From Photobacterium swingsii (GTDB taxonomy: Bacteria > Pseudomonadota > Gammaproteobacteria > Enterobacterales > Vibrionaceae): DNA of 64,000 nt. Of the stretch, positions 16,823-30,520 are shown piece after piece. Below the pieces are notes generated by a model. It had not been told where the DNA came from, made no database searches, and worked only from the letters and a program-made list of their open reading frames with translations. The translations under genes were made by a program, and so were the position numbers. The stretch's first letter is position 1. Every line of letters starts with the position of its first letter. Location of the stretch: NCBI RefSeq assembly GCF_024346715.1, contig NZ_AP024852.1, forward strand, positions 3,410,001-3,474,000, read 5' to 3'.

Positions 16823-17851
16823 CTACACGTCTAATTCCGCTGGAATTTTTGCTACCGCTTGTTGCAGTACTTCAATGCCTGCACCCGGCTTATGGGCATT
16901 TTCACTGATATGACGACGCCACTGACGCGCACCCGGTAAACCTTGGAATAAGCCCAACATATGGCGAGAGATATGACCAAGGTATGAACCGTTGGCAAGT
17001 TGGCGCTCTATATATGGGAACATAGCTTCAACCAGCTCACGCTGCTTGATAATAGGTTTCGTGCTACCAAAGAGACGCTGATCCACTTGCGCCATCATGT
17101 AAGGGTTTTGGTAAGCCTCGCGGCCCACCATGACGCCATCCAGATGTTTCAAGTGTTCGTCCATCTCTTCAAACGTCTTAATACCACCATTAATGGCCAT
17201 CTTTAGATGCGGGAAATCACGTTTTAATTGGTAAACACGCGGGTAATCTAGTGGTGGGATTTCACGGTTTTCTTTCGGGCTTAATCCCTTCAGCCATGCT
17301 TTGCGAGCATGAATAGTGAAATCATCACAGCCGCTTTTCTCAGACACTGTCGAAATAAATTGAGTCAAAAACTCATAAGAGTCTTGCTCATCAATACCGA
17401 TGCGCGTTTTCACCGTAACCGGGATATCAACCACTTCACGCATTGCAGAGACACACTGCGCAACCAAATCGGCTTCACCCATTAAACAGGCACCAAACAT
17501 ACCGTTTTGCACACGATCTGAAGGGCAACCTACGTTCAGGTTAATTTCATCATAGCCACGCTCTTGTGCTAGCTGGGCACAACGCGCCAAATCCGCAGGG
17601 TTTGACCCACCCAGTTGTAACGCTAATGGGTGCTCTTCTTCGTTGTACGCAAGAAAGTCGCCTTTACCATGAATAATAGCGCCCGTTGTCACCATCTCGG
17701 TATAAAGCAACGCATGCTCACTCATCAAGCGGTGAAAGTAACGACAGTGGCGGTCAGTCCAATCGAGCATAGGCGCGACAGAGAAACGGCAAGAGGGGTA
17801 ATCACCAGCAACGCCGCTAATTTCCTGATGTTTATCAACATTTAATGTCAT
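16823..17851 (-). CDS. dusA: tRNA-dihydrouridine(20/20a) synthase DusA (chimeric 5' end from integrated element)
   Basis: 342 residues. FMN-dependent reduction of U20/U20a in tRNA. N-terminal FMN-barrel motif [13 protein letters not shown], catalytic-cysteine region [19 protein letters not shown], then [30 protein letters not shown] and [13 protein letters not shown]. All active-site segments are intact. The 36-bp direct repeat (17753-17788) covers codons 22-33 exactly, so residues 1-21 and the start signal are contributed by the inserted element. The displaced native start is the remnant at 30404-30520. The promoter must lie in the 83 bp shared with the divergent integrase gene, so expression of this tRNA-modification gene is now driven by element DNA. 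Confidence 0.95.
17753..17788. repeat. attL-side copy of 36-bp direct repeat
   Basis: Identical over 36 bp to 30410-30445. It encodes the conserved DusA segment [12 protein letters not shown]. Similarity continues imperfectly outwards (CAAGA shared just beyond 17789). Confidence 0.95.
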
Positions 17852-17898
17852 TTCGAATTACCTGTAATATCGTTGAAATTGCTTGAATTTCGTTCTAC

Positions 17899-17918
17899 AG
17901 TACCCCTCATAGTACCCC
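17899..17918. repeat. Paired AGTACCCC motifs near left end (candidate integrase arm sites)
   Basis: AGTACCCC occurs at 17899-17906 and 17911-17918, spaced 12 bp apart, between the dusA start and the integrase start. The same octamer recurs at 30370-30377 near the right end, and its complement GGGGTACT lies at 18139-18146 inside the integrase gene. The spacing and placement suit arm-type recombinase sites or a regulator site for the divergent promoters. Confidence 0.45.
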
Positions 17919-17934
17919 CGACAGAGTAGGACAA

Positions 17935-19014
17935 ATGGCATCTTTCACGGTAGAAAAACGACAACTCAAAAGCGGCGAACTGCGGTACAAAGCAACTGTT
18001 TTCGTAAAAAAGAACTCGCGGATTATACATCGAGAATCGAAAACTTTCAGAAAAAAGGATTTAGCTCGCACTTTTGGGCGAAATCGAGTTCTGGAATTAG
18101 AATCTAAAGGGGTACAAATTAATAACTCAGTCCCCCTAGGGGTACTGCTTGACCGTTTCATGAATGATGCTGATTTATGGAATAAAACTGGACGAACCAA
18201 GCGCTATGTCATTCAAATGCTAAGAGATTGCGATATAGCGAACATTGACAGCAACCAATTAAGAACAAGCGATCTTATAGAACACTGTCGAAACAGAAGA
18301 TCAGCAGGAGCAAAACCTGCCACGGTTTACCATGACATAGCTTACCTACGCTCGGTAATGAAAAAAGCTACACCTGTTTTTAATATCAATGCGAACTATC
18401 CAATTTTCGATGAAGCAGTCCCTGTACTGATAGATATGGGACTCGTAGGTAAAAGTCAAAAACGCACCCGACGCCCTACAGAGACAGAGCTAGACAGGCT
18501 CAAAGAAGGGCTGAAAGCACGTCAGGACTTTCGCTCCAACGGCAAAACACGAATACCTTTCTTAGATATTCTGGATTTCAGCATTTTGACCTGTATGCGA
18601 ATTGGGGAAGTATGCAAACTCCGTTGGGAAGATCTAAACGAAGAACACAAAACCATTGTTGTCCGTGACCGTAAAGACCCTCGCAAAAAAGAGGGAAACC
18701 ACATGATTGTTCCATTGCTAGCTGAATCGTTCGACATTGCTATGAACCAGCCCAAAACAAACGAACTGATTTTCCCTTACAACCCGCGCAGTGTCACAGC
18801 AGGCTTTCAAAGAGTAAGAAACAGTTTAGGCATTGAAGACTTGCGCTATCACGACATGAGGCGAGAAGGAGCTAGTAGGCTGTTTGAAAAAGGGTATTCG
18901 ATAGAGGAAGTAGCGCAGGTAACTGGGCATAGAAACATCAATATTTTATGGCAAGTCTACACTCAATTATTACCACATAAACTACACAACAAACAAAAAA
19001 ATAAAGCTCGCTAA
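17935..19014 (+). CDS. int: Tyrosine recombinase (DusA-type phage integrase)
   Basis: 359 residues. The N-terminal arm-binding region is followed by a SAM-like core-binding domain (about 65-160) and a catalytic domain. Catalytic residues are visible: R222 in TCMRIGEVCKLRW, K247 in DRKDPR, H306 and R309 in HDMRREG, H332 in TGHRN, W339, and nucleophile Y342 in LWQVYTQL. It directs site-specific integration at the dusA 5' end, which is the known target of one integrase group. It is adjacent to the left att repeat and divergent from dusA, sharing an 83-bp promoter region with AGTACCCC repeats. A short ribosome site (AGGA) precedes the ATG. Confidence 0.96.
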   Translation: MASFTVEKRQLKSGELRYKATVFVKKNSRIIHRESKTFRKKDLARTFGRNRVLELESKGVQINNSVPLGVLLDRFMNDADLWNKTGRTKRYVIQMLRDCDIANIDSNQLRTSDLIEHCRNRRSAGAKPATVYHDIAYLRSVMKKATPVFNINANYPIFDEAVPVLIDMGLVGKSQKRTRRPTETELDRLKEGLKARQDFRSNGKTRIPFLDILDFSILTCMRIGEVCKLRWEDLNEEHKTIVVRDRKDPRKKEGNHMIVPLLAESFDIAMNQPKTNELIFPYNPRSVTAGFQRVRNSLGIEDLRYHDMRREGASRLFEKGYSIEEVAQVTGHRNINILWQVYTQLLPHKLHNKQKNKAR

Positions 19015-19024
19015 AAGCGAGCTT
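19004..19024. terminator. Stem-loop between integrase and the Cas2-like gene
   Basis: Perfect 9-bp stem AAGCTCGCT / AGCGAGCTT with a 3-nt loop. It overlaps the integrase stop codon and has no T-tract, so termination is uncertain. Confidence 0.5.
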
Positions 19025-19031
19025 ATACATT

Positions 19032-19283
19032 TCATTTCAACTGGTTAGGGTTACCATCCGTATTTATCGATGCCCAATTAGTAACCTCTGACACCATAAT
19101 CGCATCATCACCATCAATAATGCTTTTAAAATGATCTCGCAACCGTGATGGTGATGTATTATCACGCTTAAAACACCAAGTAGACTCTAAAATTCGAACT
19201 GCATTATATTCCTTCAGCTCTGTATACAACTTTTGATAATCTCGTGATTTCCTTAAGTCATAAGTAATAAAATATAAAGCCAT
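19032..19283 (-). CDS. Cas2/SinR-like small ferredoxin-fold protein
   Basis: 83 residues. It begins MALYFITYDLRKSRDYQKLY, a Cas2-type first beta strand ending in Y-D, followed by an amphipathic helix, VRILESTWCFKR and a terminal strand IMVSEVTNWAS. This is the layout of orphan SinR/Cas2-like proteins as I remember them. No Cas1 or repeat array is nearby, so it is not a CRISPR adaptation gene. It is the last gene on the minus strand before the integrase, the typical site for phage accessory genes. A good ribosome site (AGAGGTAAG) supports expression. A nuclease, toxin or antiviral role is possible but unproven. Confidence 0.7.
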   Translation of the reverse strand: MALYFITYDLRKSRDYQKLYTELKEYNAVRILESTWCFKRDNTSPSRLRDHFKSIIDGDDAIMVSEVTNWASINTDGNPNQLK

Positions 19284-19385: not shown

Positions 19386-19523
19386 TTATCCTAACACCTT
19401 TGTTTCCAGTCGAATGAGACGATTATTATGCCTCCAAAAGATAGCGATAATAACCAGCATTGAGGGCGGTAAGCCCATTGAAGTAAAGTATTGCAACACC
19501 TCAACCATATCACTTGAACTCAT
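19386..19523 (-). CDS. Tiny membrane protein (45 aa)
   Basis: Starts at ATG 19523, overlapping the end of the preceding gene (AAATGAG context, stop TGA at 19510-19512). After a short polar N-terminus there is one hydrophobic helix around PPSMLVIIAIFWRHNNRLIR, then a basic/amphipathic tail. The arrangement resembles small virion membrane proteins or class-III-like holins; I cannot tell which. It is the last of a chain of overlapping small genes, which is the main argument that it is real. Confidence 0.6.
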   Translation of the reverse strand: MSSSDMVEVLQYFTSMGLPPSMLVIIAIFWRHNNRLIRLETKVLG

Positions 19524-19731
19524 TTCTCAAGGTTTCCCATACACCAAGCACAACAGGAACAGCTGTACCAATTAAACCACCATAGCTCACACCCGCATCA
19601 GTGACGGTTGCCGTTAGTAACTCAGGGTGACCAACAGCAAGCGCCACACCAGCACCAAGTAACGCGATACCTTTTTTAGTCGATGGTTGGTCTACATCAA
19701 TGTTCAAAATATCCTTTAGAAAATCTTTCAT
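19510..19731 (-). CDS. Small hydrophobic phage protein (73 aa)
   Basis: A polar N-terminus (MKDFLKDILNIDVDQPSTKK) is followed by two hydrophobic segments, GIALLGAGVALAVG and GVSYGGLIGTAVPVVLGVW. It is Gly/Ala-rich, as expected for a protein of an internal virion membrane or a holin. Start ATG 19731 overlaps the stop of the upstream gene (ATGA), and its own stop overlaps the next start. No family recognised. Confidence 0.7.
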   Translation of the reverse strand: MKDFLKDILNIDVDQPSTKKGIALLGAGVALAVGHPELLTATVTDAGVSYGGLIGTAVPVVLGVWETLRNEFK

Positions 19732-19904
19732 AGTAACTTACTCTTTTTCAGATATTTGATGGTGTAAGCAGCCGCTACACCACCAATGACTGTAACTGTA
19801 ATTTTTGCAGCTACTCCAGCCCAAAGATTGGGTTCAGGGGCTTTTACTTTCTTCACTTTTTTAGGTTCTTTGCTTAAAGCCTGCACGGCCTGATGTTCAA
19901 ACAT
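19728..19904 (-). CDS. Small single-span membrane protein (58 aa)
   Basis: ATG at 19904, stop TGA overlapping the next ATG. Lys-rich N-terminus (SKEPKKVKKVKAPEP), then one membrane helix around LWAGVAAKITVTVIGGVAAA, and a basic end YLKKSKLL. It fits the small membrane-associated virion proteins of PM2-like phages in size and layout only. It lies 13 bp after the hydrolase-like gene. Confidence 0.65.
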   Translation of the reverse strand: MFEHQAVQALSKEPKKVKKVKAPEPNLWAGVAAKITVTVIGGVAAAYTIKYLKKSKLL

Positions 19905-19917
19905 CACAGCCCCTTAC

Positions 19918-20415
19918 TCACGCTAATGCGATACCAGCCATCACATCACTAAGTGGAAATTCAATACCAACTTCCATACGAGCCATTGCACGCAATACCG
20001 AGGCCATTTCACGGTCATTATTTGTGTCTACTACATGGCTTGGAGGTAAACCAGCCCACTGACAAACAAGGCTGACATAGCGTTCCGAATCATTTTCATT
20101 TGGTGGCGCAAATGTATTAACAATATCTGTAATGGTGCGAACCTTACGATTTCGGTAACTTTTCAGCACCCGAGCACCAGCACGAAAGCCCCACTTATTA
20201 TGGCTAAAAGTACAAAAACGCCCGTTACGCCCTGTTTGACCTTTCCAGTTATTACGCTCGTTATACTCAATATTAAGCGGGTTCTTATTACGAATCCCCA
20301 CCGCACCACCTTGCCCTGATTTAGTCATACTGACCGCGTCCTTTTTCAATTTAAACGTGAGAAAACAACCAATAATTGCGCAGCTAATAAGGGCGGTTCG
20401 GTAATTCATCTTCAT
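19918..20415 (-). CDS. Membrane-anchored peptidoglycan-hydrolase-like virion protein
   Basis: 165 residues. One N-terminal membrane helix (ALISCAIIGCFLTF) precedes a domain with GIRNKNPLNIEYNERNNWKGQ, then FCTFSHNKWGFRAGARVLKS, then TITDIVNTFAPPNENDSERY. This pattern is common in phage structural proteins thought to act as muralytic/transglycosylase-like enzymes at entry. The catalytic residue is not certain; the Glu in NIEYNE is a candidate. The gene overlaps its upstream neighbour by 32 bp. Two in-frame ATGs (20415, 20409) are both usable. Confidence 0.75.
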   Translation of the reverse strand: MKMNYRTALISCAIIGCFLTFKLKKDAVSMTKSGQGGAVGIRNKNPLNIEYNERNNWKGQTGRNGRFCTFSHNKWGFRAGARVLKSYRNRKVRTITDIVNTFAPPNENDSERYVSLVCQWAGLPPSHVVDTNNDREMASVLRAMARMEVGIEFPLSDVMAGIALA

Positions 20416-21091
20416 TCCAACTCATATGTCGACCACCATCATTCTCGCCCCCCGCATAACGCACATAATCAATAACAAGATTACCGCGTAGCGTTACATC
20501 GGCTGACTGAAAGTCTTTAGGGGCAGGCTGAAAGCCATGTTCATCTTGATAAAAACCAAACACCAAATTAGGCAGAATGTCTGATTCAAAGGGAAAGCTA
20601 CCAATTGCAGACACACTGAAATTAGTATCTGCAAACTTTGAGGTATGAATAGGAATGATATAATCACCCATTGGGTCGTTTATGCAGAATGCTGGCGTAC
20701 CTTCGACCTTATTTGATTCATTCATCGAATCGTAATCAACGTTTAACCCGAAAATATCAAAGCGCCCACAAACACGGCGAACATTTGATGGCATTTTATC
20801 GAACGTTAATTCACCGAATTCACTTTCAAAAAAATCACCATAAAACAGCATTTCTTGACGACCACGATTCATATAAAGCTTAATCTTGCCATTCTCTAAA
20901 TTACTGGCGCACTGAAGAGGAAGACGAAGCGATAAGATTTCCAACTTTTCAGCCTTAAAAACCTCACCACCATGACCATTGTCACCATCGCTATCACCAC
21001 CATTTTCAGCGATGTATTCATCCATAGCCTTAGCTAAATGTTCAATTTTGTTCCGAGAGCTACCAGCAGGTAATGACTGTAAAATACTCAC
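20384..21091 (-). CDS. Putative virion protein of unknown function (235 aa)
   Basis: Starts with GTG at 21091, fused to the stop of the previous gene (TAGTG). A helical N-terminus is followed by an acidic, Asp/Gly-rich loop (GDSDGDNGHGG) that could bind calcium, then a beta-rich remainder. It has no membrane helix or signal peptide. Its place between the repeat-containing stalk-like protein and the hydrolase-like protein suggests a vertex, spike or minor capsid role. That is inference from order only. I do not recognise the family. Confidence 0.7.
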   Translation of the reverse strand: MSILQSLPAGSSRNKIEHLAKAMDEYIAENGGDSDGDNGHGGEVFKAEKLEILSLRLPLQCASNLENGKIKLYMNRGRQEMLFYGDFFESEFGELTFDKMPSNVRRVCGRFDIFGLNVDYDSMNESNKVEGTPAFCINDPMGDYIIPIHTSKFADTNFSVSAIGSFPFESDILPNLVFGFYQDEHGFQPAPKDFQSADVTLRGNLVIDYVRYAGGENDGGRHMSWNEDELPNRPY

Positions 21092-21795
21092 TATTTCACC
21101 ATTTCAATTAATTGAATTTTGTCACCATCAACGCCTGTAAAACTTAACGCCGCTGTCGTTGGTAACGTGATTTTTTCAGACGCTTCAAGCTCATAAGAAC
21201 CAAGTAAAACAATACCTTTATTCTCTTTTGCCGCTTTCACCATCACTTGAGAGCGTGCAGAGCGTGATGCTTGTGTGGCCTTTCCATCAACAAGGGTTAA
21301 CACATTGCTAATCAGCCGCTCAGCCGTCACCGTGGTTACAGGGATAACTTGCCCTACTTTCACTTCCACTGCTGGCAAATGCGAAACTTGAACCGCAGGC
21401 ATCTGTGACACTTCAATTGCGGGTATCTGCGATACCTGAACAGCAGGCATTTGTGACACCTCAATTGCAGGCACCTGCGACACCTGAACGGCAGGCATCT
21501 GTGATACCTCAACCGCGGGCATCTGCGACACTCTAACTGCGCGCCCTTCAGTGGGAGGGGAATACGAGCCAGAGCCGCTAACAATCTCAACCGCTCCCGC
21601 CTTATCACTTAAATTCGTCACGGTAACTTTCCCGCTCAGATTTTCTGCGCGAACCTGCGCACCTTGTTTTAAGCGATATTGCCCCCGCATCGTTTCAATC
21701 AGAACCACATCAGGACAAGCTTCGACATGAAGAAACTCACCAATCAAATGAAACTCAACACGCTGAGATGGTTGCAAATATTGGTTCAAACTCAC
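21091..21795 (-). CDS. Putative spike/stalk protein with octapeptide repeats
   Basis: 234 residues with three parts. Residues 1-88 form a beta-rich N-terminal domain. Residues 89-144 hold seven consecutive 8-residue repeats of V-S-Q-[MVI]-P-A-[VI]-[EQ]. Residues 145-234 form a C-terminal domain ending in KIQLIEMVK. Repeats of this kind (V-S-x-x-P-A) occur in phage fibre and stalk proteins, so I propose a receptor-binding or vertex stalk. Start is GTG at 21795, overlapping the upstream stop (GTGA). The repeat number is likely to vary between relatives. Confidence 0.72.
   Translation of the reverse strand: MSLNQYLQPSQRVEFHLIGEFLHVEACPDVVLIETMRGQYRLKQGAQVRAENLSGKVTVTNLSDKAGAVEIVSGSGSYSPPTEGRAVRVSQMPAVEVSQMPAVQVSQVPAIEVSQMPAVQVSQIPAIEVSQMPAVQVSHLPAVEVKVGQVIPVTTVTAERLISNVLTLVDGKATQASRSARSQVMVKAAKENKGIVLLGSYELEASEKITLPTTAALSFTGVDGDKIQLIEMVK
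21364..21531 (-). repeat. Seven tandem 24-bp coding repeats
   Basis: Seven in-frame 24-bp units encode the octapeptides of the stalk-like protein. Units alternate between versions ending in E and in Q, so the higher-order period is 48 bp. Confidence 0.9.
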
Positions 21796-22283
21796 GTTCC
21801 TTTACCCCCTAAATACACGACCGCGACCGCAGCCAGAGCCACTGCAAAAACAACTTTGACCATTTGACTGGATGTTTGCACCTGACCGCCATCAGACTTG
21901 GCCTGTGCTAACTCCCGCAGCGCTTCAAGATTGGCTGAATTTTGTTTAGCCTGTTGACCGCTCATCCCTGCCAATACCTGTAAGTTTTCATGATTACTAT
22001 CACTCACACTCTTGATAGCGTTCTTACTTACTTCTGCTGTCTTATCGAGAGCACTTTTTGAAACCTCCGCGTTGGAGGTTAATGCCAGTTCAGCAAGTTC
22101 CCCCGCTTTGGTTACCGCACCGTGGTCAGTCAGAGAAACATTGACAGAGGAGTTAGATACACCAGATAAAACAACCCCAGTGTTATCACCTGAAACACCT
22201 GCTGTACCTGACGTGTTATGTGTCGTGGTGGTTGTATTAGTTACGTTCTTTGTTTTATTACTACTGCGACTACTACCGCCCAT
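21792..22283 (-). CDS. Phage protein with low-complexity N-terminus and C-terminal membrane anchor (163 aa)
   Basis: The N-terminus is Gly/Ser/Thr/Asn-rich (GGSSRSSNKTKNVTNTTTTT). A heptad-like helical middle (about 60-125) follows, and the C-terminus has one membrane helix (VVFAVALAAVAVVYLGG). It could be a membrane-anchored fibre or a virion-membrane protein beneath the capsid. It overlaps both neighbours by a few bases. The MGGSSRS start is similar in style to small phage structural proteins, but no family is recognised. Confidence 0.7.
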   Translation of the reverse strand: MGGSSRSSNKTKNVTNTTTTTHNTSGTAGVSGDNTGVVLSGVSNSSVNVSLTDHGAVTKAGELAELALTSNAEVSKSALDKTAEVSKNAIKSVSDSNHENLQVLAGMSGQQAKQNSANLEALRELAQAKSDGGQVQTSSQMVKVVFAVALAAVAVVYLGGKGT

Positions 22284-22653
22284 AAATAGCCCTTATGACT
22301 AAACGGTCGTCTTCGTCCTTACCATCTAAGAAGAAAGGCATCCCCATGCGATTTAAAACCCATTGCAAGCCTGTTCTATAGGTATGCATTCGCACAGAAT
22401 GACAATTGCGACTCCGTCCGTACTCAAACAGTGCATCAGTGCAACTGACATTCCCCGCAAAGCCGACTACGACCATTTCTATTTCATTCGTATCGGTAAA
22501 CTGTTCAAAACGAATGCAAGCAAAAGAATCTGTGCCTACGCGGAAAACCGCCTCCCGTCCTGCTGCTACTTCTGCCTTTGCTTCATCAAAGTATCCAGCC
22601 AGCGCAAGGTGTAACTTTTCCTGCGCCTCATCCCACGTACACACCGAAATCAT
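22273..22653 (-). CDS. Small soluble phage protein, weakly acetyltransferase-like (126 aa)
   Basis: No membrane segment. The order of elements (MISVCTWDEAQEKLHLALAG, then IEMVVVGFAGN, then CHSVRMHTYRTGLQWVLNRM with a following GMPFF) resembles the C-terminal half of GNAT-fold proteins, but the acetyl-CoA loop is not clear. It overlaps the next gene by 11 bp and lies among virion genes. Function unknown. Confidence 0.65.
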   Translation of the reverse strand: MISVCTWDEAQEKLHLALAGYFDEAKAEVAAGREAVFRVGTDSFACIRFEQFTDTNEIEMVVVGFAGNVSCTDALFEYGRSRNCHSVRMHTYRTGLQWVLNRMGMPFFLDGKDEDDRLVIRAIYGR

Positions 22654-22656
22654 GTT

Positions 22657-22881
22657 TTACTTACCTTTGTTACTCAAAATCCAAAGAACAGCCACACCAC
22701 CAAGTAATAACGCCCATGTAGGGATACCGTTCTTACTGCCCATGTTTAACTCACCACCTTTAAAACCACTTTCATTCGTAGTCTTAGTGCTATGGGTTAC
22801 CGTACTCGTCGCAGTAGCGGGGCCCGATGAGCCGCCTTTCAAGCCACCACCACCCGTTAGGCTAGTTAGCGAACCAAGCAT
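22657..22881 (-). CDS. Small membrane protein with Gly/Thr-rich N-terminus (74 aa)
   Basis: ATG at 22881 overlaps the preceding stop (TGATG). The first 50 residues are Gly/Ser/Thr-rich (TGGGGLKGGSSGPATATST). One membrane helix (GIPTWALLLGGVAVLWIL) precedes the C-terminal NKGK. Layout and size suggest a virion-membrane protein. No family recognised. Confidence 0.65.
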   Translation of the reverse strand: MLGSLTSLTGGGGLKGGSSGPATATSTVTHSTKTTNESGFKGGELNMGSKNGIPTWALLLGGVAVLWILSNKGK

Positions 22882-23033
22882 CAATGCTTACCCCCGTAAT
22901 TCGAATAGAGGTACATGGCAAGCGCCAACATAAAAATCACTTTCGTCATTTTGCTTACACCACCGCCAGCCCAGAAACCCGCAGCAAAAAGACCGCTACC
23001 ACCTAACACCATGAAAAGAGGAATCAACGGCAT
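22881..23033 (-). CDS. Tiny two-helix membrane protein (50 aa)
   Basis: ATG at 23033 preceded by AAGGGGG, and stop TGA overlapping the next start. Two hydrophobic stretches, IPLFMVLGGSGLFAAGFW and KVIFMLALAMYLY, are separated by GGGVSKMT. It is gap-free with the genes on both sides, which supports it despite its length. Candidate integral protein of the virion membrane. Confidence 0.65.
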   Translation of the reverse strand: MPLIPLFMVLGGSGLFAAGFWAGGGVSKMTKVIFMLALAMYLYSNYGGKH

Positions 23034-23034
23034 A

Positions 23035-24391: not shown

Positions 24392-25051
24392 TCACCATCG
24401 AATCACTCCCTTTTTAAACGCCTTCCCATCTTGTAGCAGGTACTCAAGCGGATTGAGTTTATCTATATCGCTAGCAGGGATTCCGGTCATTTTTTCCAAA
24501 TACATTGCGCTTGCTTTGGTCTTTTGCATCATCACACAAGCACGTTGGCAGTTATCTATAATGGTTTTCGATACCTCCTGACCACGCTGAAACAGGTTGA
24601 TAGTATGCAAATTAAACTTACGTCCTAAGCGCAATATTTTCCCGTGATAGCCTACAGCCTTACCCGCGTTTTCACTGTGCTCTGCCACTTCTTCACAAAT
24701 AATCATTAATGGTTTGGTATGTTTTCCATTTCCCATTGCCCAAACAACCTGACAAAATTTATCAAAGTCTTTAGATGTGGTTTCATGAGTTGGCTGATAA
24801 GCAATCTTAAAACCTTGCTTTGTTTTGCGCCCCGCAATCAATGCCGCGGCGAACTCTTTGATATTGGAATAACCGCGCACCACTCGCCCTGCAAGCTTGC
24901 CAGTGTAATCCCCCATTGGGTCAAACATTGCCACTTGGTCGGTAGATTTGATGAATAGTTTTTTAGCGGCAGAGGTTTTACCACTGCCACTCATACCAAC
25001 CGCAAATACGTGACCATTCTTAAGGGCATTATTTGGGTTAATTGGCTGCAT
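24392..25051 (-). CDS. Genome-packaging ATPase (P9/A32-like, FtsK-HerA superfamily)
   Basis: 219 residues without membrane helices. Walker A is GMSGSGKT (residues 19-26), Walker B is PLMIICEE (114-121), followed by a sensor-like segment INLFQRGQEVSKTIIDN. This is the layout of packaging ATPases of membrane-containing tailless phages (PRD1, PM2) and their relatives. The lack of a membrane segment argues against the Zot-type proteins of filamentous phages. It overlaps its upstream neighbour by 14 bp. A terminator separates it from the capsid gene cluster. Confidence 0.88.
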   Translation of the reverse strand: MQPINPNNALKNGHVFAVGMSGSGKTSAAKKLFIKSTDQVAMFDPMGDYTGKLAGRVVRGYSNIKEFAAALIAGRKTKQGFKIAYQPTHETTSKDFDKFCQVVWAMGNGKHTKPLMIICEEVAEHSENAGKAVGYHGKILRLGRKFNLHTINLFQRGQEVSKTIIDNCQRACVMMQKTKASAMYLEKMTGIPASDIDKLNPLEYLLQDGKAFKKGVIRW

Positions 25052-25262
25052 TTAATTCCCCCTTCAAAGGCACAACAGAATCAACGCCACATTGAAACGG
25101 AACAGCCTCACTAATTAGCTGCAATGCCTCCGCCTCTGTTAACTTTGTTGCGATAATGTCGTTTAACTCATTTTGCTTCAACAACATAACTAATCGCCCA
25201 TCACAATGCGCAGGGCGTCCATCCAACAAATAGAAATCAGCATTATTCGTTCGTAACAGCAT
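25038..25262 (-). CDS. Small soluble phage protein (74 aa)
   Basis: I take ATG 25262, which has GAGG about nine bases upstream; an in-frame ATG at 25271 is also possible. It contains NNADFYLLDGRPAHCDGRL, then an acidic helix with KLTEAEALQLISEAVPF. It has no membrane helix. It overlaps the genes on both sides. No family recognised. Confidence 0.65.
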   Translation of the reverse strand: MLLRTNNADFYLLDGRPAHCDGRLVMLLKQNELNDIIATKLTEAEALQLISEAVPFQCGVDSVVPLKGELNAAN

Positions 25263-25710
25263 CAGATTCATCCTCACTAGGAGTCACATCCTTAGCGGCA
25301 TCAGAAACTTTTAACATTCTAATTTGCTGGAACGATGAGAAACCCAAAGCCCCCGCCGCAACAACGAAAGAGAATTCCTCTTTGTACTGCGCTAACCACG
25401 GCGGCAGTTCGCCACCATATTTCACAAACAAGGGCGCGGTTGTACTTGCTACGTTTTCGGCCTGCGATGAATCAAACGCAAAATCTTTATGGCCGAACTG
25501 TTTAAGCAATTGCTCAGACACACCAAGCACAGCCATGACAGAAGCCGCACCTTGCGCTAATGCGAGCGAGTTGTCCGCAGCTTTAATATCTGCCGTGCTT
25601 GGGTCAAAATCTTGTTCATCACCGAGTTGCTGAAGAAGTGCCGCCTCTTCTTCCGTTGTATGTGCATCTTCATTTACTTCGATTTCATTTACTTCAAGTT
25701 CATTTTCCAT
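25243..25710 (-). CDS. Acidic phage protein, possibly membrane-associated (155 aa)
   Basis: Very acidic N-terminus (ENELEVNEIEVNEDAHTTEEE), an Ala-rich helix (SLALAQGAASVMAVLGVSEQLL), PPWLAQYKEEF, and a moderately hydrophobic segment (FSFVVAAGALGFSSF) near the C-terminus. Starts one base after the upstream stop. Its place before the packaging ATPase suggests a structural or assembly role, but I do not recognise it. Confidence 0.68.
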   Translation of the reverse strand: MENELEVNEIEVNEDAHTTEEEAALLQQLGDEQDFDPSTADIKAADNSLALAQGAASVMAVLGVSEQLLKQFGHKDFAFDSSQAENVASTTAPLFVKYGGELPPWLAQYKEEFSFVVAAGALGFSSFQQIRMLKVSDAAKDVTPSEDESDAVTNE

Positions 25711-26082
25711 TTAAGCCACCATTTTTAATGTTTTCACTAAACCGCCAAACACAAGCCCCATAACCGCACCTATACCCACACAGGCAACGGTTCCCATTTG
25801 CTTTGATTCGGTATCCTGATTTGGCTTAGATACCACTTCGTTTACAACCTGATTGACTTCCGATTTCGGCGTTTTCAGCACTTCAATTTCGGATTGCACT
25901 TCTTCAAGTGGTTTAAATGCTTTCATTTCCACTTGCGCTGCTTTGCCTGTACGGGTATCAGGGCCACATTCACAACGACCATGAACAAAAGCAGCTCGTT
26001 TCCCTTTGCCTTGCTTAATAGATTTAGGGTTTAAGCAAGTACGGCACACCACATACCCTAAGATTTCGGTTTCATTGTCCAT
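25711..26082 (-). CDS. Zinc-ribbon protein with C-terminal membrane helix (123 aa)
   Basis: N-terminal C-x2-C (VCRTC) and C-x-C (GRCEC) motifs suggest a small zinc ribbon. A charged linker follows, and the C-terminus has one helix (GTVACVGIGAVMGLVFGGLV). The ATG at 26082 is preferred over 26088, which lies too close to the AAGGGA ribosome site. It overlaps the 72-aa gene. Function unknown; it might bind DNA at the virion membrane. Confidence 0.68.
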   Translation of the reverse strand: MDNETEILGYVVCRTCLNPKSIKQGKGKRAAFVHGRCECGPDTRTGKAAQVEMKAFKPLEEVQSEIEVLKTPKSEVNQVVNEVVSKPNQDTESKQMGTVACVGIGAVMGLVFGGLVKTLKMVA

Positions 26083-26290
26083 TCGCATTCCCTTCTAGTT
26101 TGGTTAGTCGCTGATTAGTGATTTTGATATATCGAAGCAATGCACTAACCAACGGTTTGAACGATTTACCCATCAATGAATTAGTAAATGACTCGCCCGC
26201 CTCACTGATAGTTTTTGTAATTTCTGCTGATGCTTTCTGTAACGATTCTGCTGACACTGTTTTCACCCTATGTGCTAAATAACTCGACAT
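26072..26290 (-). CDS. Small helical phage protein (72 aa)
   Basis: Amphipathic, mostly helical (KTVSAESLQKASAEITKTIS), with a basic helix LLRYIKITNQRLTKLEGN at the end. No membrane span. It overlaps the end of rep by 23 bp and the zinc-ribbon gene by 11 bp, so it is probably translated with them. No family recognised. Confidence 0.62.
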   Translation of the reverse strand: MSSYLAHRVKTVSAESLQKASAEITKTISEAGESFTNSLMGKSFKPLVSALLRYIKITNQRLTKLEGNANGQ

Positions 26291-28172
26291 GGCCTCTGTC
26301 TAACTCCAAGTGAAGAAAGAATTTTGAGACTATTCGCTCTTGTTTCGTTAGTGGTTTGCCTTGCGTACAGTTATTGACACAAGTCCAAGGACGGGGATGC
26401 CCATCCCCTAAAAGAGCAAGAGCACCCGCATCTGACTGCGGTGCATCCAGCTTGACCATCTTCCACTCATGCTCATGAGTAAAAACGGTGATACCAACAC
26501 CAGTAACACCAGTGACTTTCTCTGTCGGTTCACCGTAGCGGTTTTCGGTTGGTTCTTTGTATAACGTGATAGGACGCTCACGCTGACTTACTCTGTGCCC
26601 GCCCATATAATCGAAATACGCAGAGAAAAAACCAAAGTCAGCCGCTCTTCGGGCTCTCTCAAACAGGGAGTATTCCTGTTCGCCTTCAATTCGACGTAGC
26701 TCTCGCCACACGGTGACGCTTGGTGTTTTCTGGAATTGGAATTGACGAAAGTTGAAACAGCGCGCCCACGCTGTCACGTTGTTAACAACTTCAAGTAATT
26801 TGGTCTTTTTAGAGTCCAAATCTGACAGGCCATCTAGGCCGTAGCCATCAATATTCTTTGAGATATATTTCGCGATATAGGCCACGGCATCACCTTGGCT
26901 ACGGTCAATAACATCAACTTTGACACGAGCTTGCATTGCCTTAGCTTTTGGCTTGCCATCATCAAAAAACAGTTCGTCACGGTCACGTTGGAACTGGTAA
27001 AACTGAATCAGGGCAGTGAACTGTGACACTTGCTCAAACGGCATAAAAAAGACAGCGTGCCAGTGCGGAGTACCATCAATATGAGGCTCAACAACACGCA
27101 TCCCGTAATAGGTGAGGCGCTCTCGGGTCTTCGTTGTTCTATCGGAAGCACCACGAAATCGCTGCCAAGACAGAGACAGCCAATCATGCGCCGCTTGTGT
27201 GCCCTGACCGTTCCAGTTGGGGTTTTCAACCCAATACTTGCCGCGCTTTTTCAAACGATGGTATTTACCTGCTGCTGTCATAGTCACAAAGACTGCAACA
27301 TGATCTTGCTCGTCTGCATATTCCTGACACCCAGCGATACGGGTCATTAACTCGTTACGGCGGTTTTCTGGGTTTGCTACTGACGCATCATGAATATCAG
27401 TCATGCTAAATTGCTCACCGTCTTCATTTTCAATCGCCATCATTTCAAGCCATTCACGCTGTTTTTCTTGGCGTCCCTTCAACCACTGACAAGCAGAATA
27501 TGAGGCATAAGGACTTGTGTTATCCGAGACCATCCCCGCCGCTCGACGGGCATTTTCAAATGCAGCAACCACTTGCTTTTGAATACTCCGTTTCCATACT
27601 GAATCATCAATAGCTCTGACAATAATGCTGAAATAAACCTCTTCGTCGCACCCTTCGCTCGGCTCAAACTGAGGCATCCACAGGGCTAGCCCCGTGAACT
27701 CATTAATTTCACGCAACGTATCAAGCGGGCTTAACCCCTTTTTAACTGCGAGATCCAAGTGCATACGTGCGCGCCCTGCTAACTCATCAGCAAGACGCGC
27801 ACATTTATACTCGGTATTCACACACCAAAACGGTTCAGGTAAAACCGCCAAGGCCGCATGTGCAGCCTTAGCGCGAGACTCAATAAACGAAATTGCACGT
27901 TTAAAACCGTATTTACGAAAGCGGGCAGCAGAAGCTTTATCAAGATAGGTTTTAATATCCGCAGGTAATTTGAATTGCGCCCTAACTTGGTTAGCAAAAT
28001 CAAACACCTGCTCTCGTGGCGTTAGTAACCCATAATCAGCTCGTTGCTCAGTGACCACGCATAACTCTGGATTTGTACGTTGGTTTTTAACCACGTATTG
28101 CGCTAGCTCAACACGGAGAGATGGCGGCAAAGCTTTGAGAGAGTTTTTTGTGTTTTGGTTATATGTTTTCAC
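26268..28172 (-). CDS. Rolling-circle replication initiator (HUH superfamily, two-tyrosine, gpA type)
   Basis: 634 residues. The metal-binding HUH motif is PHWHAV (H370, H372) and the nicking motif is Y432-x3-Y436-x2-K439 in AYIAKYISKN. Two tyrosines place it in superfamily I with phage P2 and phiX174 gpA and PM2 P12. It nicks the origin and starts rolling-circle replication of the circular phage genome. GTG start fused to the upstream stop (TAGTG). The origin itself is often inside or near rep, but I could not identify it by eye. Confidence 0.92.
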   Translation of the reverse strand: MKTYNQNTKNSLKALPPSLRVELAQYVVKNQRTNPELCVVTEQRADYGLLTPREQVFDFANQVRAQFKLPADIKTYLDKASAARFRKYGFKRAISFIESRAKAAHAALAVLPEPFWCVNTEYKCARLADELAGRARMHLDLAVKKGLSPLDTLREINEFTGLALWMPQFEPSEGCDEEVYFSIIVRAIDDSVWKRSIQKQVVAAFENARRAAGMVSDNTSPYASYSACQWLKGRQEKQREWLEMMAIENEDGEQFSMTDIHDASVANPENRRNELMTRIAGCQEYADEQDHVAVFVTMTAAGKYHRLKKRGKYWVENPNWNGQGTQAAHDWLSLSWQRFRGASDRTTKTRERLTYYGMRVVEPHIDGTPHWHAVFFMPFEQVSQFTALIQFYQFQRDRDELFFDDGKPKAKAMQARVKVDVIDRSQGDAVAYIAKYISKNIDGYGLDGLSDLDSKKTKLLEVVNNVTAWARCFNFRQFQFQKTPSVTVWRELRRIEGEQEYSLFERARRAADFGFFSAYFDYMGGHRVSQRERPITLYKEPTENRYGEPTEKVTGVTGVGITVFTHEHEWKMVKLDAPQSDAGALALLGDGHPRPWTCVNNCTQGKPLTKQERIVSKFFLHLELDRGHVELFST

Positions 28173-28351
28173 TACTGGACAACCCTTGCTTGCAGTTGAT
28201 TTGCTCTAATTCGAATACGGTCTAATGTGTGGATTTTCTTGCGGTCTCTCTTAGCTTTGATTCGCTTCATTTCGCCGCGAATCTTGCTGATATTCTTCAA
28301 ACCGATTAAGCACTGCTTTTCATTTGGGAATTCATAGTCTTTGGCTGGCAT
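28172..28351 (-). CDS. Tiny basic protein upstream of rep (59 aa)
   Basis: ATG at 28351, stop TAG sharing one base with the rep GTG. Rich in Lys and Arg (KIRGEMKRIKAKRDRKK and TLDRIRIRANQ), helical, no membrane span. It probably binds nucleic acid or modulates rep translation. Two bases separate it from the preceding gene. Function is inference. Confidence 0.65.
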   Translation of the reverse strand: MPAKDYEFPNEKQCLIGLKNISKIRGEMKRIKAKRDRKKIHTLDRIRIRANQLQARVVQ

Positions 28352-28353
28352 GG

Positions 28354-28596
28354 CTACACCCTCGCGTGCTTAGGAACCAACTCACCAGTACACTTGAAAT
28401 GAGCAAGCCTATCCTGCAGACGCTGTTGAAAGCATGGGTCAGTGGCTTCTCTTGCAGCGCACGCGAGTTCAACAGCAAACACACGACCAAAATCCTCACT
28501 CGCATCTAACGATGCACGTGCAATCGATGAAGGAATACGGTTTAGCCGAACCGCCTTATACATAGTTTTGAAATGTTCTTTAGCTGTCTTTTTCAT
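28354..28596 (-). CDS. Small early phage protein (80 aa)
   Basis: ATG at 28596 with AGGGG about seven bases upstream. Helical, with AKEHFKTMYKAVRLNRIPSS and FAVELACAAREATDPCFQQR. It has no membrane helix. It lies in the early/replication operon between the PrtN-like gene and rep. Function unknown. Confidence 0.65.
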   Translation of the reverse strand: MKKTAKEHFKTMYKAVRLNRIPSSIARASLDASEDFGRVFAVELACAAREATDPCFQQRLQDRLAHFKCTGELVPKHARV

Positions 28597-28606
28597 AATT
28601 AACCCC

Positions 28607-28861
28607 TTACGCATTCACTGATTGCCATTCGGCTTTAGCTTGCTCATATCGCTGGTCGATATAAGCCGCCAAATCTTCGATTTTGATTAGGGAGGGACTG
28701 CGCTCTGAGTCGCGCAATTTGAAGGTAGGAACGGGGAAATCACACGCCTTTGCTTTTTGTTCAGCAGTCTTAGGTGTAATGCCAAAAAATTCCTTACAGA
28801 CCTCTTTCAGCTCAATAGTGGGAGTTCCGTAACGCGCAAGCAGTGCAAATTGTGTATTCAT
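28607..28861 (-). CDS. PrtN-family (pyocin activator) regulator
   Basis: 84 residues. It starts MNTQFALLARYGTPTIELKE and continues with CKEFFGITPKTAEQKAKACDFPVPTFKL and the end DLAAYIDQRYEQ, which is the PrtN-family layout: a small winged/HTH-like DNA-binding protein. In Pseudomonas PrtN activates pyocin genes when the repressor PrtR is cleaved after DNA damage. Here it is divergent from a cleavable CI-type repressor, the same logic. Strong ribosome site GGAGGA. It heads the minus-strand replication/virion transcription unit. Confidence 0.8.
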   Translation of the reverse strand: MNTQFALLARYGTPTIELKEVCKEFFGITPKTAEQKAKACDFPVPTFKLRDSERSPSLIKIEDLAAYIDQRYEQAKAEWQSVNA

Positions 28862-28995
28862 AAATCCTCCATGTAGTACACTTAAGGACATTTAGAGCAA
28901 CTCAAACAACCCTAAATAGTCCTCAAAATCGACACGGGGAATTATTAGGGAAGTTTAAAGGTAAAGCAACCCCAAATATACACGGAGAATGACTC
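28862..28995. promoter_or_regulatory. Divergent control region between repressor and PrtN-like genes
   Basis: Repeated half-sites: AGGACATTTAG (28885-28895) and CTAAATAGTCCT (28912-28923) form an imperfect inverted repeat, and TTAGGG recurs at 28945-28950. These are good candidates for repressor operators controlling both promoters of the lysogeny switch. Confidence 0.6.
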
Positions 28996-29604
28996 ATGGG
29001 AAGTTTTGAGGAACAACTAAGAGAGTTAAAGCAACTTACAAATACAGCTAAGAACGTAGACCTAGCAAGGGTTCTTGGTAAATCCCCAAAGACGATCTCA
29101 AACTGGAAACACCGCGATCATATCCCTGAAGACATTTTCATTAAAGCGCGACAGATATCACAAAATAGCAGTATGGCAACACCTAACGGCTACGTTGAAT
29201 TACCATTTTATGAAGTAGAAGTCAGTGCTGGTCATGGCGTTCTCGTTGAAAGAGAAGATCTGTCATCTGCGATAATTTTCAGTGAAGGCTATCTACGTAA
29301 AGAAATTGGCGTAACCCCAAATAGTGTACTTTTAATGCCTATTAAAGGTGACAGTATGCACCCTACGTTGAAACATGGCGGTGTTATGATGGTACACAAA
29401 GTCGAAGAATTTACTGATGATGGAATCTATGTATTTCGATTTGATAGTCGTTTAATGGTAAAACGCCTTCAATACTCCAAAGCTGGATTAAAAGTCGTTA
29501 GCGATAATGGTACTTACGAACCGTGGGAGCTTAGTAAAAAAGATGTTCAAGCTGAAGATTTTGAAGTAATAGGGAAAGTTGTTTGGACAGGGCAACGGAT
29601 GTGA
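28996..29604 (+). CDS. CI-type phage repressor with S24/LexA-like autocleavage domain
   Basis: 202 residues. N-terminal helix-turn-helix (about 15-50: NVDLARVLGKSPKTISNWKHR) of the CI repressor type. The C-terminal S24 peptidase-like domain has cleavage site A78-G79 in EVSAGHG, nucleophile S120 in KGDSMHPTL and general base K156 in LMVKRLQ, with LexA-like spacing. RecA-stimulated self-cleavage after DNA damage is therefore expected, releasing the divergent PrtN-like activator. It keeps the prophage silent. Ribosome site GGAG; strong bidirectional terminator after the gene. Confidence 0.92.
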   Translation: MGSFEEQLRELKQLTNTAKNVDLARVLGKSPKTISNWKHRDHIPEDIFIKARQISQNSSMATPNGYVELPFYEVEVSAGHGVLVEREDLSSAIIFSEGYLRKEIGVTPNSVLLMPIKGDSMHPTLKHGGVMMVHKVEEFTDDGIYVFRFDSRLMVKRLQYSKAGLKVVSDNGTYEPWELSKKDVQAEDFEVIGKVVWTGQRM

Positions 29605-29629
29605 TAGCTAAATTATACCTTTTTGACAC

Positions 29630-29660: not shown

Positions 29661-29661
29661 G

Positions 29662-29790
29662 TTATGCGGCTTTTTTTGCATCTTCTGCTAGTCGATTATC
29701 TACAGAAGAAAGTAGAGATTCCATCTTATCCAAGTAAGAGTGTGCTTCTTTCATAAGCCTTCTAATTAAAAGCTCATTACAATTTTTCAT
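29662..29790 (-). CDS. Tiny accessory protein (42 aa)
   Basis: ATG at 29790, AAGGG eight bases upstream. Short amphipathic helical protein (CNELLIRRLMKEAHSYLDKM, C-terminal AEDAKKAA). No membrane span. It ends at the bidirectional terminator and follows the 106-aa gene by 38 bp, so the two may form an operon. Function unknown. Confidence 0.55.
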   Translation of the reverse strand: MKNCNELLIRRLMKEAHSYLDKMESLLSSVDNRLAEDAKKAA

Positions 29791-29828
29791 ATTAATACCC
29801 TTTTTTTGATGCGCAACGATAGATGACG

Positions 29829-30149
29829 TTAAACAAAACTCATTTTTTCAAGATCATGCTCTGCAGCTTTTAGACCATCTTGGTCATGATTAGCAATGCA
29901 TAAAGCCATTTTTTCCATCAGTAGCGCGGCTTGACGAGCATTAAGAGAAATTCGCTCTTCATCCCAACCGCCAGCTTCAGCAATCGCCCCGATGGTGGAA
30001 GCCATAAGGTTCGCATATTCAGCAAACTGTTCGTAAGTTGGTTCGTTATGCTGACTAAGCTCTTGTACAGTAAATAGTTTTGATTGATCTAAGAAATGCT
30101 TAGCAACTTTAAATACACGCTGGTACAGGAAATTTAATTCATCTTCCAT
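29829..30149 (-). CDS. Helical accessory protein near the right end (106 aa)
   Basis: Fully helical, acidic, soluble. It contains FLYQRVFKVAKHFLDQS, then YANLMASTIGAIAEAGGWDE and ARQAALLMEKMALCIANHDQ. It is the outermost element gene before the right att site, a typical position for lysogenic-conversion or immunity genes. It is on the strand opposite to the repressor and has its own weak GGTGAAG ribosome site. I do not recognise the family and give no function. Confidence 0.65.
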   Translation of the reverse strand: MEDELNFLYQRVFKVAKHFLDQSKLFTVQELSQHNEPTYEQFAEYANLMASTIGAIAEAGGWDEERISLNARQAALLMEKMALCIANHDQDGLKAAEHDLEKMSFV

Positions 30150-30369
30150 TTTTTCACTTCACCAAAAAGCCTAAAAATTTGGGCAGTGATTGTACCGTTC
30201 CGAACAAGTATTGTACAAGTTTTATATCTAGAATAGCCTAGAATTTCGCTGAATTGAATTTAATTCATACTAAATCACAAACAATTAACAGGAGCAACTG
30301 TTTTTATACTTAAATGGGGAGGGAGTCAAATCAAATATTTTATCTAAAATACTATAGCCGTCCCCCTAT

Positions 30370-30377
30370 AGTACCCC
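30370..30377. repeat. AGTACCCC motif near right end (candidate arm site)
   Basis: Third copy of the octamer found twice near the left end, 33 bp inside the right 36-bp repeat. It is partly enclosed by the inverted pair ACTATAG (30351-30357) and CTATAGT (30366-30372). The stretch 30150-30403 around it contains no gene I can support. Confidence 0.4.
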
Positions 30378-30403
30378 TTAATCACTGAGAAGCTAGAGAT
30401 AAT

Positions 30404-30520
30404 CTAAAAGTCAGTCCAATCGAGCATAGGCGCGACAGAGAAACGACAAGAAGGAAACTCCTCCTGGCGTGTAAGTTCTGTTTGTAAATCGTCGCAACTC
30501 GCAACAGCACTGTTTGGCAT
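30404..30520 (-). pseudogene. dusA: Displaced native 5' end of dusA (38 codons)
   Basis: From ATG 30520 the frame reads a DusA-like N-terminus that becomes identical to the current protein from [15 protein letters not shown]. It then leaves homology right after the 36-bp repeat and stops at TAG 30404-30406. This is the original start of dusA, cut off by the insertion. Its first 20 or so residues differ from those of the element-supplied N-terminus. It still has its own upstream region and might be transcribed. Precise excision between the repeats would rejoin it to the rest of dusA. Confidence 0.93.
30410..30445. repeat. attR-side copy of 36-bp direct repeat
   Basis: Perfect copy of 17753-17788, in the same orientation, marking the right boundary of the element. 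Confidence 0.95.

Follow-up and report, generated by a model that had tools for sequence, protein, structure and literature searches.

We found that positions 17753 to 30445 of a 64-kb window, the whole stretch of Photobacterium DNA analyzed here, hold a 12.7-kb tailless prophage bounded by perfect 36-bp repeats. We interpret this element, with a probability of roughly 0.88, as an apparently intact temperate membrane-containing bacteriophage of the order Vinavirales that lies dormant in dusA and is a mosaic of three parts. Its capsid gene and its packaging ATPase seem to derive from separate virus lineages. Prophages of this tailless Vinavirales kind have been known from dusA since 2024; the mosaic makeup goes beyond that description. 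The features are listed below by window coordinates and strand; L numbers denote related prophages, fractions give the number of the 103 relatives that share a gene, and capsid (M) and ATPase (A) types are identity clusters.

16823..17851, reverse: dusA, tRNA dihydrouridine synthase (NCBIfam DusA 2.9e-167); 5' end and start codon from the prophage
17753..17788: attL, 36-bp repeat within dusA
17935..19014, forward: tyrosine integrase (Pfam 2.4e-20; 93% to L105)
19032..19283, reverse: Cas2-like protein, alone, in the accessory-gene slot (PF09827 4e-7; 0/103)
19386..19523, reverse: 45-aa protein beside small membrane proteins (89% to L105; 20/103)
19510..19731, reverse: 73-aa protein, borderline membrane segment (phrog_8494 8e-30)
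19728..19907, reverse: 59-aa membrane protein (hydropathy)
19918..20415, reverse: P5-like peptidoglycan hydrolase (phrog_873 2e-42; PM2 P5 1e-16)
20384..21091, reverse: 235-aa protein, probable variable outer spike (7/103; 24 to 40 residues matched in the best four)
21091..21795, reverse: 234-aa protein carrying 12-residue repeats, in the P1 position and probably the spike base (phrog_12829 2e-30; 45/103)
21792..22283, reverse: 163-aa membrane protein, PM2 gp j-like (gp j 0.001; phrog_12546 1e-30)
22273..22653, reverse: 126-aa protein (phrog_10333 0.002)
22657..22884, reverse: P8-like membrane protein (PM2 P8 5e-6)
22881..23057, reverse: 58-aa membrane protein at the P4 position (position and hydropathy)
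23035..23310, reverse: 91-aa membrane protein at the P3 position (phrog_12673 3e-6; position)
23319..24146, reverse: predicted major capsid protein, PM2 P2 type, capsid type M0 (Pfam P2_N 1e-42 and P2_C 2e-34; phrog_8536 3.5e-94; PDB 2vvf 7e-6)
24157..24270, reverse: P7-like membrane protein (37 aa) at the capsid/ATPase seam
24392..25051, reverse: packaging ATPase, PM2 P9 type, ATPase type A1 (phrog_2666 1e-44; PM2 P9 3e-17; 97% to L053)
25038..25277, reverse: 79-aa protein (open frame; 1/103)
25243..25710, reverse: 155-aa protein at the gp h position (phrog_12153 3e-9; 88% to L053)
25711..26088, reverse: 125-aa protein in the P14 position, containing Cys pairs (87% to L053; position)
26072..26290, reverse: 72-aa protein at the P13 position (position)
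26268..28172, reverse: HUH replication initiator, PM2 P12 type (Phage_GPA 1.7e-73; PM2 P12 4e-65; 88% to L105)
28172..28351, reverse: 59-aa protein (69% to L105; 1/103)
28354..28614, reverse: 86-aa protein (60% to L047; 2/103)
28607..28891, reverse: excisionase (phrog_1300 5e-31)
28996..29604, forward: CI-like repressor with LexA-type S24 peptidase (Pfam S24 5e-20, Phage_CI_repr 3e-5)
29662..29790, reverse: 42-aa accessory protein (0/103)
29829..30149, reverse: 106-aa accessory protein (0/103)
30410..30445: attR, 36-bp repeat; next to it lies the displaced 5' end of the host dusA

Both the perfect repeats and the integration into dusA proposed in the initial annotation were confirmed. The host flanks were joined without the element to give a 600-nt query with the junction at position 400. 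This query matched unbroken over 590 to 592 of 600 nt in three other genomes of the genus (G037, 88%; G038, 87%; G019, 83%), and six more genomes matched unbroken up to position 475, beyond the junction; the match was split in two in the dusA lysogens G008, G050, and G033. Because the joined flanks match in one piece elsewhere, the repeats are real att sites. Comparison of N-termini revealed that the new start from the prophage replaces the host's own MPNSAVASCDDLQTELTRQEEFPSCRFS..., so the sequence shows that dusA stays whole. Insertion at the dusA 5' end, a restored gene, and a separate integrase are also the features of the tailless prophages that Steensen et al. described in 2024 at hotspot H1 (PMC11630473). 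The integrase, which had been correctly recognized, recombines the 36-bp core at the dusA 5' end, and the host receives a replacement start.

PM2 has an icosahedral virion with an internal membrane and circular dsDNA. Profile searches matched both domains of PM2 P2 to the capsid candidate. The adjoining FtsK/HerA-type ATPase is a homologue of PM2 P9, an arrangement expected of Vinavirales; the Rep and the hydrolase matched PM2 P12 and P5, upholding the PM2-like identity put forward previously. With its double jelly roll judged by sequence, the 275-aa protein is a P2-type capsid protein, as had been claimed. Further inspection of the ATPase revealed a P-loop (GMSGSGKT) and no hydrophobic stretch (maximum Kyte-Doolittle value, 0.49), and the Rep carries HWH at residue 370 and YIAKY at residue 432, in agreement with the HUH two-tyrosine assignment. 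The hydrolase had been called membrane anchored; it is a homologue of PM2 P5, and the anchor is borderline (N-terminal hydrophobic stretch, 1.41). The earlier count of membrane proteins shorter than 100 residues was eight or more, whereas with a 19-residue hydropathy cutoff of 1.6 only five pass (59, 75, 58, and 91 aa and the 37-aa P7, the last unnamed at that time). The 73-aa (1.59) and 45-aa (1.49) proteins are borderline, and clear segments also occur in the 163- and 125-aa proteins, both longer than 100 residues. The 235-aa protein is probably a variable outer spike, since just its N-terminus is common to relatives. No portal family, named beforehand as evidence against this identity, was found among the profile matches of the prophage proteins.

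Several matches carry other labels and leave the reading of the element unchanged. Matches to the hydrolase include PHROGs that bear tape measure or injection transglycosylase annotations, the best PHROG of the ATPase (phrog_2666) is labeled "terminase large subunit," the Rep has a subthreshold match (3.6e-6) to the ORF2/G2P Rep family, and the 73-aa protein has a chance-level match (0.13) to a "major coat protein" PHROG.

These data safely place the prophage in the order Vinavirales but not in the family Corticoviridae. The ICTV 2025 text gives the order nine shared signature genes. Homologues of P12, P9, P2, P5, and P8 were found by sequence at E values of 5e-6 or better and gp j weakly (0.001), and the counterparts of P7, P3, P4, gp h, P13, and P14 were assigned by position only. 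PM2 (Corticoviridae, Merivirus PM2) shares the gene order Rep-ATPase-P7-capsid-P3/P4/P8-gp j-spike-P5 and a Rep of equal length (634 aa), in addition to homologues of P9, P2, P5, and P8. Unlike the dusA prophage, which has an integrase, an excisionase, and CI, PM2 is called lytic in the title of PMC1950889, and no integrase appears in the PM2 record. Its capsid protein is a weak match by BLAST (29% over 69 aa) and a strong one by profile. The label "corticovirus-like" held as far as PM2 likeness and failed at the family level, with capsid identities of 21 to 30% to five phages from three of the five ratified families (the other two being Mestraviridae and Parnassusviridae, with Jorvik, YY, and MfV), compared mostly over partial length. 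Corticoviridae was rejected because the ATPase is 28% identical to that of PM2, whose capsid protein has more in common with its NO16 and PG21 counterparts (34 to 36%). Asemoviridae (NO16, PG21) was rejected as well: capsid identity is 21 to 27% over partial length, and the dusA prophage has its own integrase and dusA site. NO16 is likewise temperate and tailless, but XerCD/dif integration has been proposed for it; the PG21 ATPase is 59% identical to that of the dusA prophage.

The view that an intact temperate relative of PM2 is notable in itself is outdated. PM2-like prophages, Photobacterium included, have been on record since 2007 (PMC1950889). An induced PM2-like phage followed in 2018 (PMC5968719) and NO16, a temperate tailless Vibrio phage, in 2023 (PMC9966536), ahead of the 2024 dusA study. 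Within the genus, 21 genomes out of 52, this one among them, carry capsid genes of the PM2-like family.

A CI-type repressor with an S24 domain would keep lysogeny. Induction would lead to excision and to replication of the circle from a nick that the HUH Rep introduces, as suggested by PM2. The proposed SOS switch was borne out as regards the repressor's peptidase domain but not its sites: LexA-box-like sequences with no more than one mismatch numbered 15 in the 64-kb window versus 22.9 expected, with none immediately 5' of the repressor gene. The Cas2-like protein lacks the Cas1 partner expected of a CRISPR Cas2: its own genome gave no Cas1 match, and the control search was positive in 9 of 14 genomes. 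We considered whether the element is decayed or domesticated, making no particles and persisting through dusA repair and its accessory genes. Among V. cyclitrophicus prophages, all types taken together, 41% seemed to be inactive following mitomycin C treatment (Steensen et al. 2024, PMC11630473). Against this, the core genes are open and in PM2 order, the att repeats are perfect, and near full-length matches to both capsid and ATPase lie in open frames in L053, L047, and L105 as well, all of which makes decay improbable.

Gene-by-gene comparison with the 103 relatives revealed the mosaic. The integrase, CI, and Rep are 85 to 93% identical to those of L105 (85 to 95% with the excisionase counted in), and the block comprising the ATPase and the genes of the 125- and 155-aa proteins is 87 to 97% identical to that of L053, both prophages of the genus. 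The capsid protein is only 23 to 25% identical to those of the same two elements. DNA alignment followed this division, mapping 16809-18993 (82%), 26361-28366 (80%), and 28603-29630 (78%) to L105, and 24154-25059 (86.6%) and 25285-26160 (82.5%) to L053. L053 (in G050) and L105 (in G033) are likewise in dusA but have capsid type M1, and L105 also differs in ATPase type. The capsid-to-spike block would come from a third, not closely sampled lineage, the nearest capsid protein to this M0 protein being about 70% identical, and the capsid/ATPase seam would be the P7 gene. Among 3,081 pairs, the dusA prophage and L053 were the most extreme, with the highest ATPase identity (97%) across different capsid types. 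The full ATPase tree pairs the two with good support (99/80), and the A1-only tree contained no well-supported set that includes the dusA prophage. An assembly error at the junction is unlikely, since this element and L047 lie in genomes of two and three contigs.

Published work treats the capsid protein and the packaging ATPase as an inherited viral "self," describes their trees as "congruent," and concatenates the pair. Sequence clusters and trees indicate that this pair is repeatedly uncoupled in Vibrionaceae tailless prophages. The 104 elements in which both genes are near full length comprised 27 M0A0, 17 M0A1, 11 M1A0, 29 M1A1, and 20 other combinations. Mapped onto an ATPase tree built from 79 representatives, the M0/M1 label (64 rows) requires 10 changes, of which well-supported branches force at least 8; the A0/A1 label on the capsid tree needs 7, at least 5 forced. 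Within A1 (33 rows), grouping the M0 rows was rejected (log-likelihood 104 worse; AU P = 4e-137). The deeper A0 part of the ATPase tree has long branches. Identities in the two genes are still correlated over pairs (Spearman 0.34), and both labels cluster far more than shuffled labels, so uncoupling is frequent, not free. Bearing on function, PG21, whose complete genome was deposited as that of a phage, has a capsid protein 52% identical to that of NO16, but its ATPase is 59% identical to that of the dusA prophage and 26% (over 151 residues) to the NO16 enzyme.

Capsid proteins can diverge fast. In principle, the mismatch could reflect unequal rates, with rapid capsid change under receptor or defense pressure, instead of recombination. 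This is very improbable: M0A1 elements of the same genus, L047 aside, are comparably far from the dusA prophage in both genes (capsid, 63 to 70%; ATPase, 53 to 79%), the converse case exists (L094/L097; capsid, 90%; ATPase, 32%), and for L047 a single clean breakpoint refutes it. A far more serious contender, though one we put slightly short of even odds, is that this is an ordinary dusA-type tailless prophage as in Vibrio and that its mosaic is usual phage shuffling in which capsid and ATPase hold no special place. That reading agrees with ours on identity and disputes the weight of uncoupling. V. cyclitrophicus PE001 (PQ189346, 10N.286.54.E11_PE001), compared at the gene level, has a similar gene order, extra genes by the integrase, and a related integrase (78%), excisionase (83%), repressor (59%), and capsid protein (62%), and Steensen et al. 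2024 (PMC11630473), who place tailless prophages in dusA, suggest single-protein gene conversion. PE001 differs in its ATPase (34%), its Rep (30%), and its accessory genes. The forced switches, at least 8, run against the published view of co-inheritance.

Further evidence on the seam comes from L047, a related chimera. Between -397 and -59 all but 10 of its informative sites agree with L053, and beginning at -50 all but 4 agree with L048, indicating a parent switch inside the P7 gene; L048 is barely alignable to L047 upstream of P7, so informative sites there show L053 kinship more than a two-parent contest. Same-residue codons differ in 0.42 of cases in P7 versus 0.55 in the ATPase, and conservation of P7 may reflect protein constraint rather than a recombination hotspot. 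Such exchange has recurred in the tailless prophages of Vibrionaceae, probably between elements co-resident in one cell. By analogy with PM2, the P9-type ATPase would pump DNA into a double jelly-roll shell over an inner membrane, and if the chimeras are functional, it would serve capsid proteins that share only about 23% identity. We lean somewhat toward a broader proposal, that the ATPase is capsid agnostic (able to serve any Vinavirales shell), that P7 is a standing recombination joint at which co-resident prophages swap whole capsid-membrane-spike blocks, and that capsid and ATPase are no unit of inheritance in the order, so that concatenated trees and families mix histories.

This work adds a well-delimited, apparently intact dusA tailless prophage from Photobacterium, and in the examined set it is the sharpest case of an ATPase and a capsid protein with different histories. 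If the pair is often uncoupled, trees built on concatenated capsid and ATPase need separate-gene checks. Natural chimeras of this kind allow one to ask whether the ATPase targets the capsid protein, P7, another vertex protein, or DNA alone, and the mosaic cuts against the idea that capsid and packaging motor are inherited together.

An exact pair of 36-bp repeats (17753-17788 and 30410-30445) bounds the prophage, and dusA (NCBIfam DusA, 2.9e-167) contains the attachment repeat. When the host flanks were joined without the element, three congeneric genomes (G037, G038, and G019) gave a single-piece match (83-88% identity over 590-592 of 600 nt), and in six more genomes the match ran to position 475, beyond the junction at position 400. 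In the dusA lysogens G008, G050, and G033, the joined-flank match was split into two pieces. The flank match ended near the junction in most other genomes, where the host sequence diverges, and these are uninformative. The prophage supplies the dusA start, substituting the first residues as far as the shared segment, and the displaced host start persists beyond attR. A tRNA was rejected as the integration target, since none lies within the window. The capsid gene was matched once in the organism's own genome (2 contigs). Outside attR, an 8-bp unit (AAAAAATC) is repeated in tandem at positions 30662-30789.

Inspection of the element identified an integrase, a CI/S24 repressor, and an excisionase. 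LexA-box control of the repressor was rejected, as the sites were unenriched and none was well placed. The HUH Rep is 634 aa, the same length as PM2 P12, to which it is 34% identical over 428 aa (E value of 4e-65). The ATPase is of the P9 type (28% identity to PM2 P9; 3e-17), both domains of PM2 P2 were found in the capsid protein by profile, and the hydrolase is of the PM2 P5 type (1e-16). A P8 homologue (5e-6) and a gp j-like protein (0.001) also were detected. The PM2 gene order is kept (Rep, P13/P14 positions, gp h position, ATPase, P7, capsid, P3/P4/P8, gp j, spike region, and P5), differing by a few small extra genes. The initial annotation of a tailless PM2-like prophage in dusA described a real element and identified it correctly. 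Comparison with PM2 and with phages of other families did not place it in the Corticoviridae. Features referred to below are as follows.

19032-19283, minus strand: lone Cas2-like protein, encoded in the accessory slot that separates the integrase gene from the small membrane genes
20384-21795, minus strand: probable two-gene spike, comprising a 234-aa protein with repeats and a 235-aa protein
24157-24270, minus strand: P7-like gene of 37 aa, under the usual ORF cutoffs
29662-30149, minus strand: two small genes between the repressor and attR, unmatched in 103 relatives

The 234-aa protein carries 24-nt/12-aa repeats, and the N-terminal stretch alone of the 235-aa protein is common to relatives (7 of 103 match). 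Both features fit the expectation that the former is probably the spike base and the latter its variable tip. The Cas2-like protein had no match among the 103 relatives. A working CRISPR role for it was rejected because its own genome has no Cas1; comparable lone Cas2-like genes are present in Staphylococcus, Enterococcus, and Klebsiella phages. The gene pair at 29662-30149 possibly marks a second accessory slot. Several relatives have different open frames between the repressor and attR.

The element belongs to an already known kind, the dusA tailless prophages. Steensen et al. (2024; PMC11630473) described such prophages at the 5' end of dusA, with the gene restored, and reported their own integrases, mitomycin C response, and accessory slot. 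Photobacterium is among the hosts of PM2-like prophages listed by Krupovic and Bamford (2007; PMC1950889), and NO16, with particles measuring about 80 nm, was described by Kalatzis et al. (2023; PMC9966536); further related papers deal with Jorvik (PMC10589892) and Cr39582 (PMC5968719). The Vinavirales now comprise five families (ICTV 2025; PMC12451628). The capsid protein matched 51 phage records, the best seven being Vibrio cyclitrophicus prophages (60-62% identity). Capsid profile matches were found in 94 of 329 genomes of the family and capsid protein matches in 21 of 52 genomes of the genus. ATPase matches (E value up to 0.001) were found in 105 of the 329, perhaps with other ATPases among the weakest.

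Gene by gene, the nearest relatives of the element fall into three groups. L105, an element of the same genus (in G033), is nearest for the integrase (93%), excisionase (95%), CI (85%), Rep (88%), and a 59-aa gene (69%). L053, a congeneric element with another capsid type (in G050), is nearest for the genes of the 125-aa and 155-aa proteins upstream of the ATPase (87% and 88%) and for the ATPase itself (97%). The capsid protein is nearest to M0A1 elements of the genus (about 70%), M and A denoting identity clusters of capsid protein and ATPase, as are the 91-, 75-, 126-, 163-, and 234-aa proteins and the hydrolase (41-58%). A 58-aa protein has its best match in an M1A1 element (39%). DNA maps agree with these gene-wise relatives: L053-like sequence is weaker (42-55%) between the ATPase and P7 genes and stops at 24154, the capsid start codon following eight bases further on, and L105-like DNA begins at 26361, within Rep. 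By its sequence, the element is a clear three-part chimera; the integration site, dusA repair, gene content, and mosaic joins can all be read at this level.

In order to compare capsid and ATPase histories, 110 loci were assembled along with the window, and of these 111 sources 104 have both genes near full length. The seven left out of the type table are L036, L037, L039, L078, and L126 (ATPase match broken or partial), L135 (partial capsid protein), and L125 (no ATPase found). The capsid frame is full length in L036, L037, and L039, all of the same genus, and these appear to be decaying or satellite-like copies. The 108 stretches fetched do not include every capsid gene place; those omitted include G015:C4, G083/G084 (internal stop), G234:C59, G005:C67, a second G291 copy, and short fragments. 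The type counts, which still hold near-identical copies, were M0A0, 27; M0A1 (the type of the window element), 17; M0A5, 1; M1A0, 11; M1A1, 29; M1A2, 3; M2A0, 4; M2A3, 3; M3A0, 5; M4A4, 2; M5A6, 1; and M6A7, 1.

Trees were built from 79 representatives, no pair of which is ≥97% identical in both proteins. On the ATPase tree, the M0/M1 label requires 10 changes (9-10 over bootstraps), with at least 8 forced by well-supported branches and 15 rows of other capsid types uncounted; on the capsid tree, the A0/A1 label requires 7, with at least 5 forced and 10 rows uncounted. Within an A1-only tree (33 rows), M0 rows require 6 changes, at least 3 of them forced. A single M0 group was rejected there (AU test, P = 4e-137), the test having been run on the A1 subset once the full ATPase tree was known, with capsid types defined from capsid sequences alone. 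The full tree pairs the window element with L053 (99/80). Among 165 pairs whose ATPases share 80% identity or more, 41 have capsid proteins <40% identical, and the window element with L053 is the extreme (ATPase, 97%; capsid, 23%). The converse mismatch is seen in L094 and L097 (capsid, 90%; ATPase, 32%). NO16 (L144) and PG21 (L146), which are placed in one ratified family, Asemoviridae (ICTV 2025; PMC12451628), have capsid proteins 52% identical and ATPases 26% identical, the PG21 ATPase being of the window's kind. Full freedom of exchange is argued against by the correlation that persists between capsid and ATPase pairwise identities (Spearman coefficient of 0.34), by labels that cluster far beyond shuffled ones on both trees, and by the A1-only tree, where the window element falls in no well-supported set.

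The P7 gene lies at the seam. Two main forms of P7 occur: "...WASNNVDAVED.IG" was found in 46 of 46 A1 elements and 4 of 47 A0 elements, and "...INNV.AL...GWF" was found in 37 of 47 A0 elements (P7 of L076 and L077 was entered as "other," the wrong frame having been picked). The former precedes M0 (19) and M1 (32) capsids alike. L047, a related chimera, is L053-like up to -59 relative to its own capsid start and resembles another relative, L048, from -50, which puts its crossover inside P7. PG21 represents the other option, with a P7-like peptide resembling that of NO16 and an ATPase of the A1 kind. Because the excess of synonymous conservation in P7 is only modest, a recombination hotspot was rejected as a proven fact, and P7 may be considered a candidate for one. 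Both G033 and G123 carry M0 and M1 elements; therefore, possible exchange partners do share cells.

Among the papers listed in full-text searches of the open literature, main texts only, none described capsid protein and ATPase becoming repeatedly uncoupled in the Vinavirales. Woo et al. (2021; PMC8328091) found capsid and ATPase trees noticeably congruent, with the PM2 group paraphyletic in the ATPase tree, and mentioned lateral transfer as possible. Steensen et al. (PMC11630473) suggested gene conversion of single proteins and questioned capsid-based classification, and a study of gut Vinavirales (PMC9502842) noted frequent replacement of replication genes. According to Yutin et al. (2018; PMC5894146), only the capsid protein and ATPase are conserved across all PM2-like genomes.

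By analogy with PM2 and related families, CI would hold repression until released by RecA-stimulated self-cleavage, the HUH Rep would drive rolling-circle replication, a membrane-lined double jelly-roll shell would be filled in an ATP-driven manner, and the hydrolase would assist entry or lysis. We infer from the natural chimeras that the ATPase needs no matching capsid sequence. In this chimera, what has been taken for the inherited core of these viruses separates at P7.
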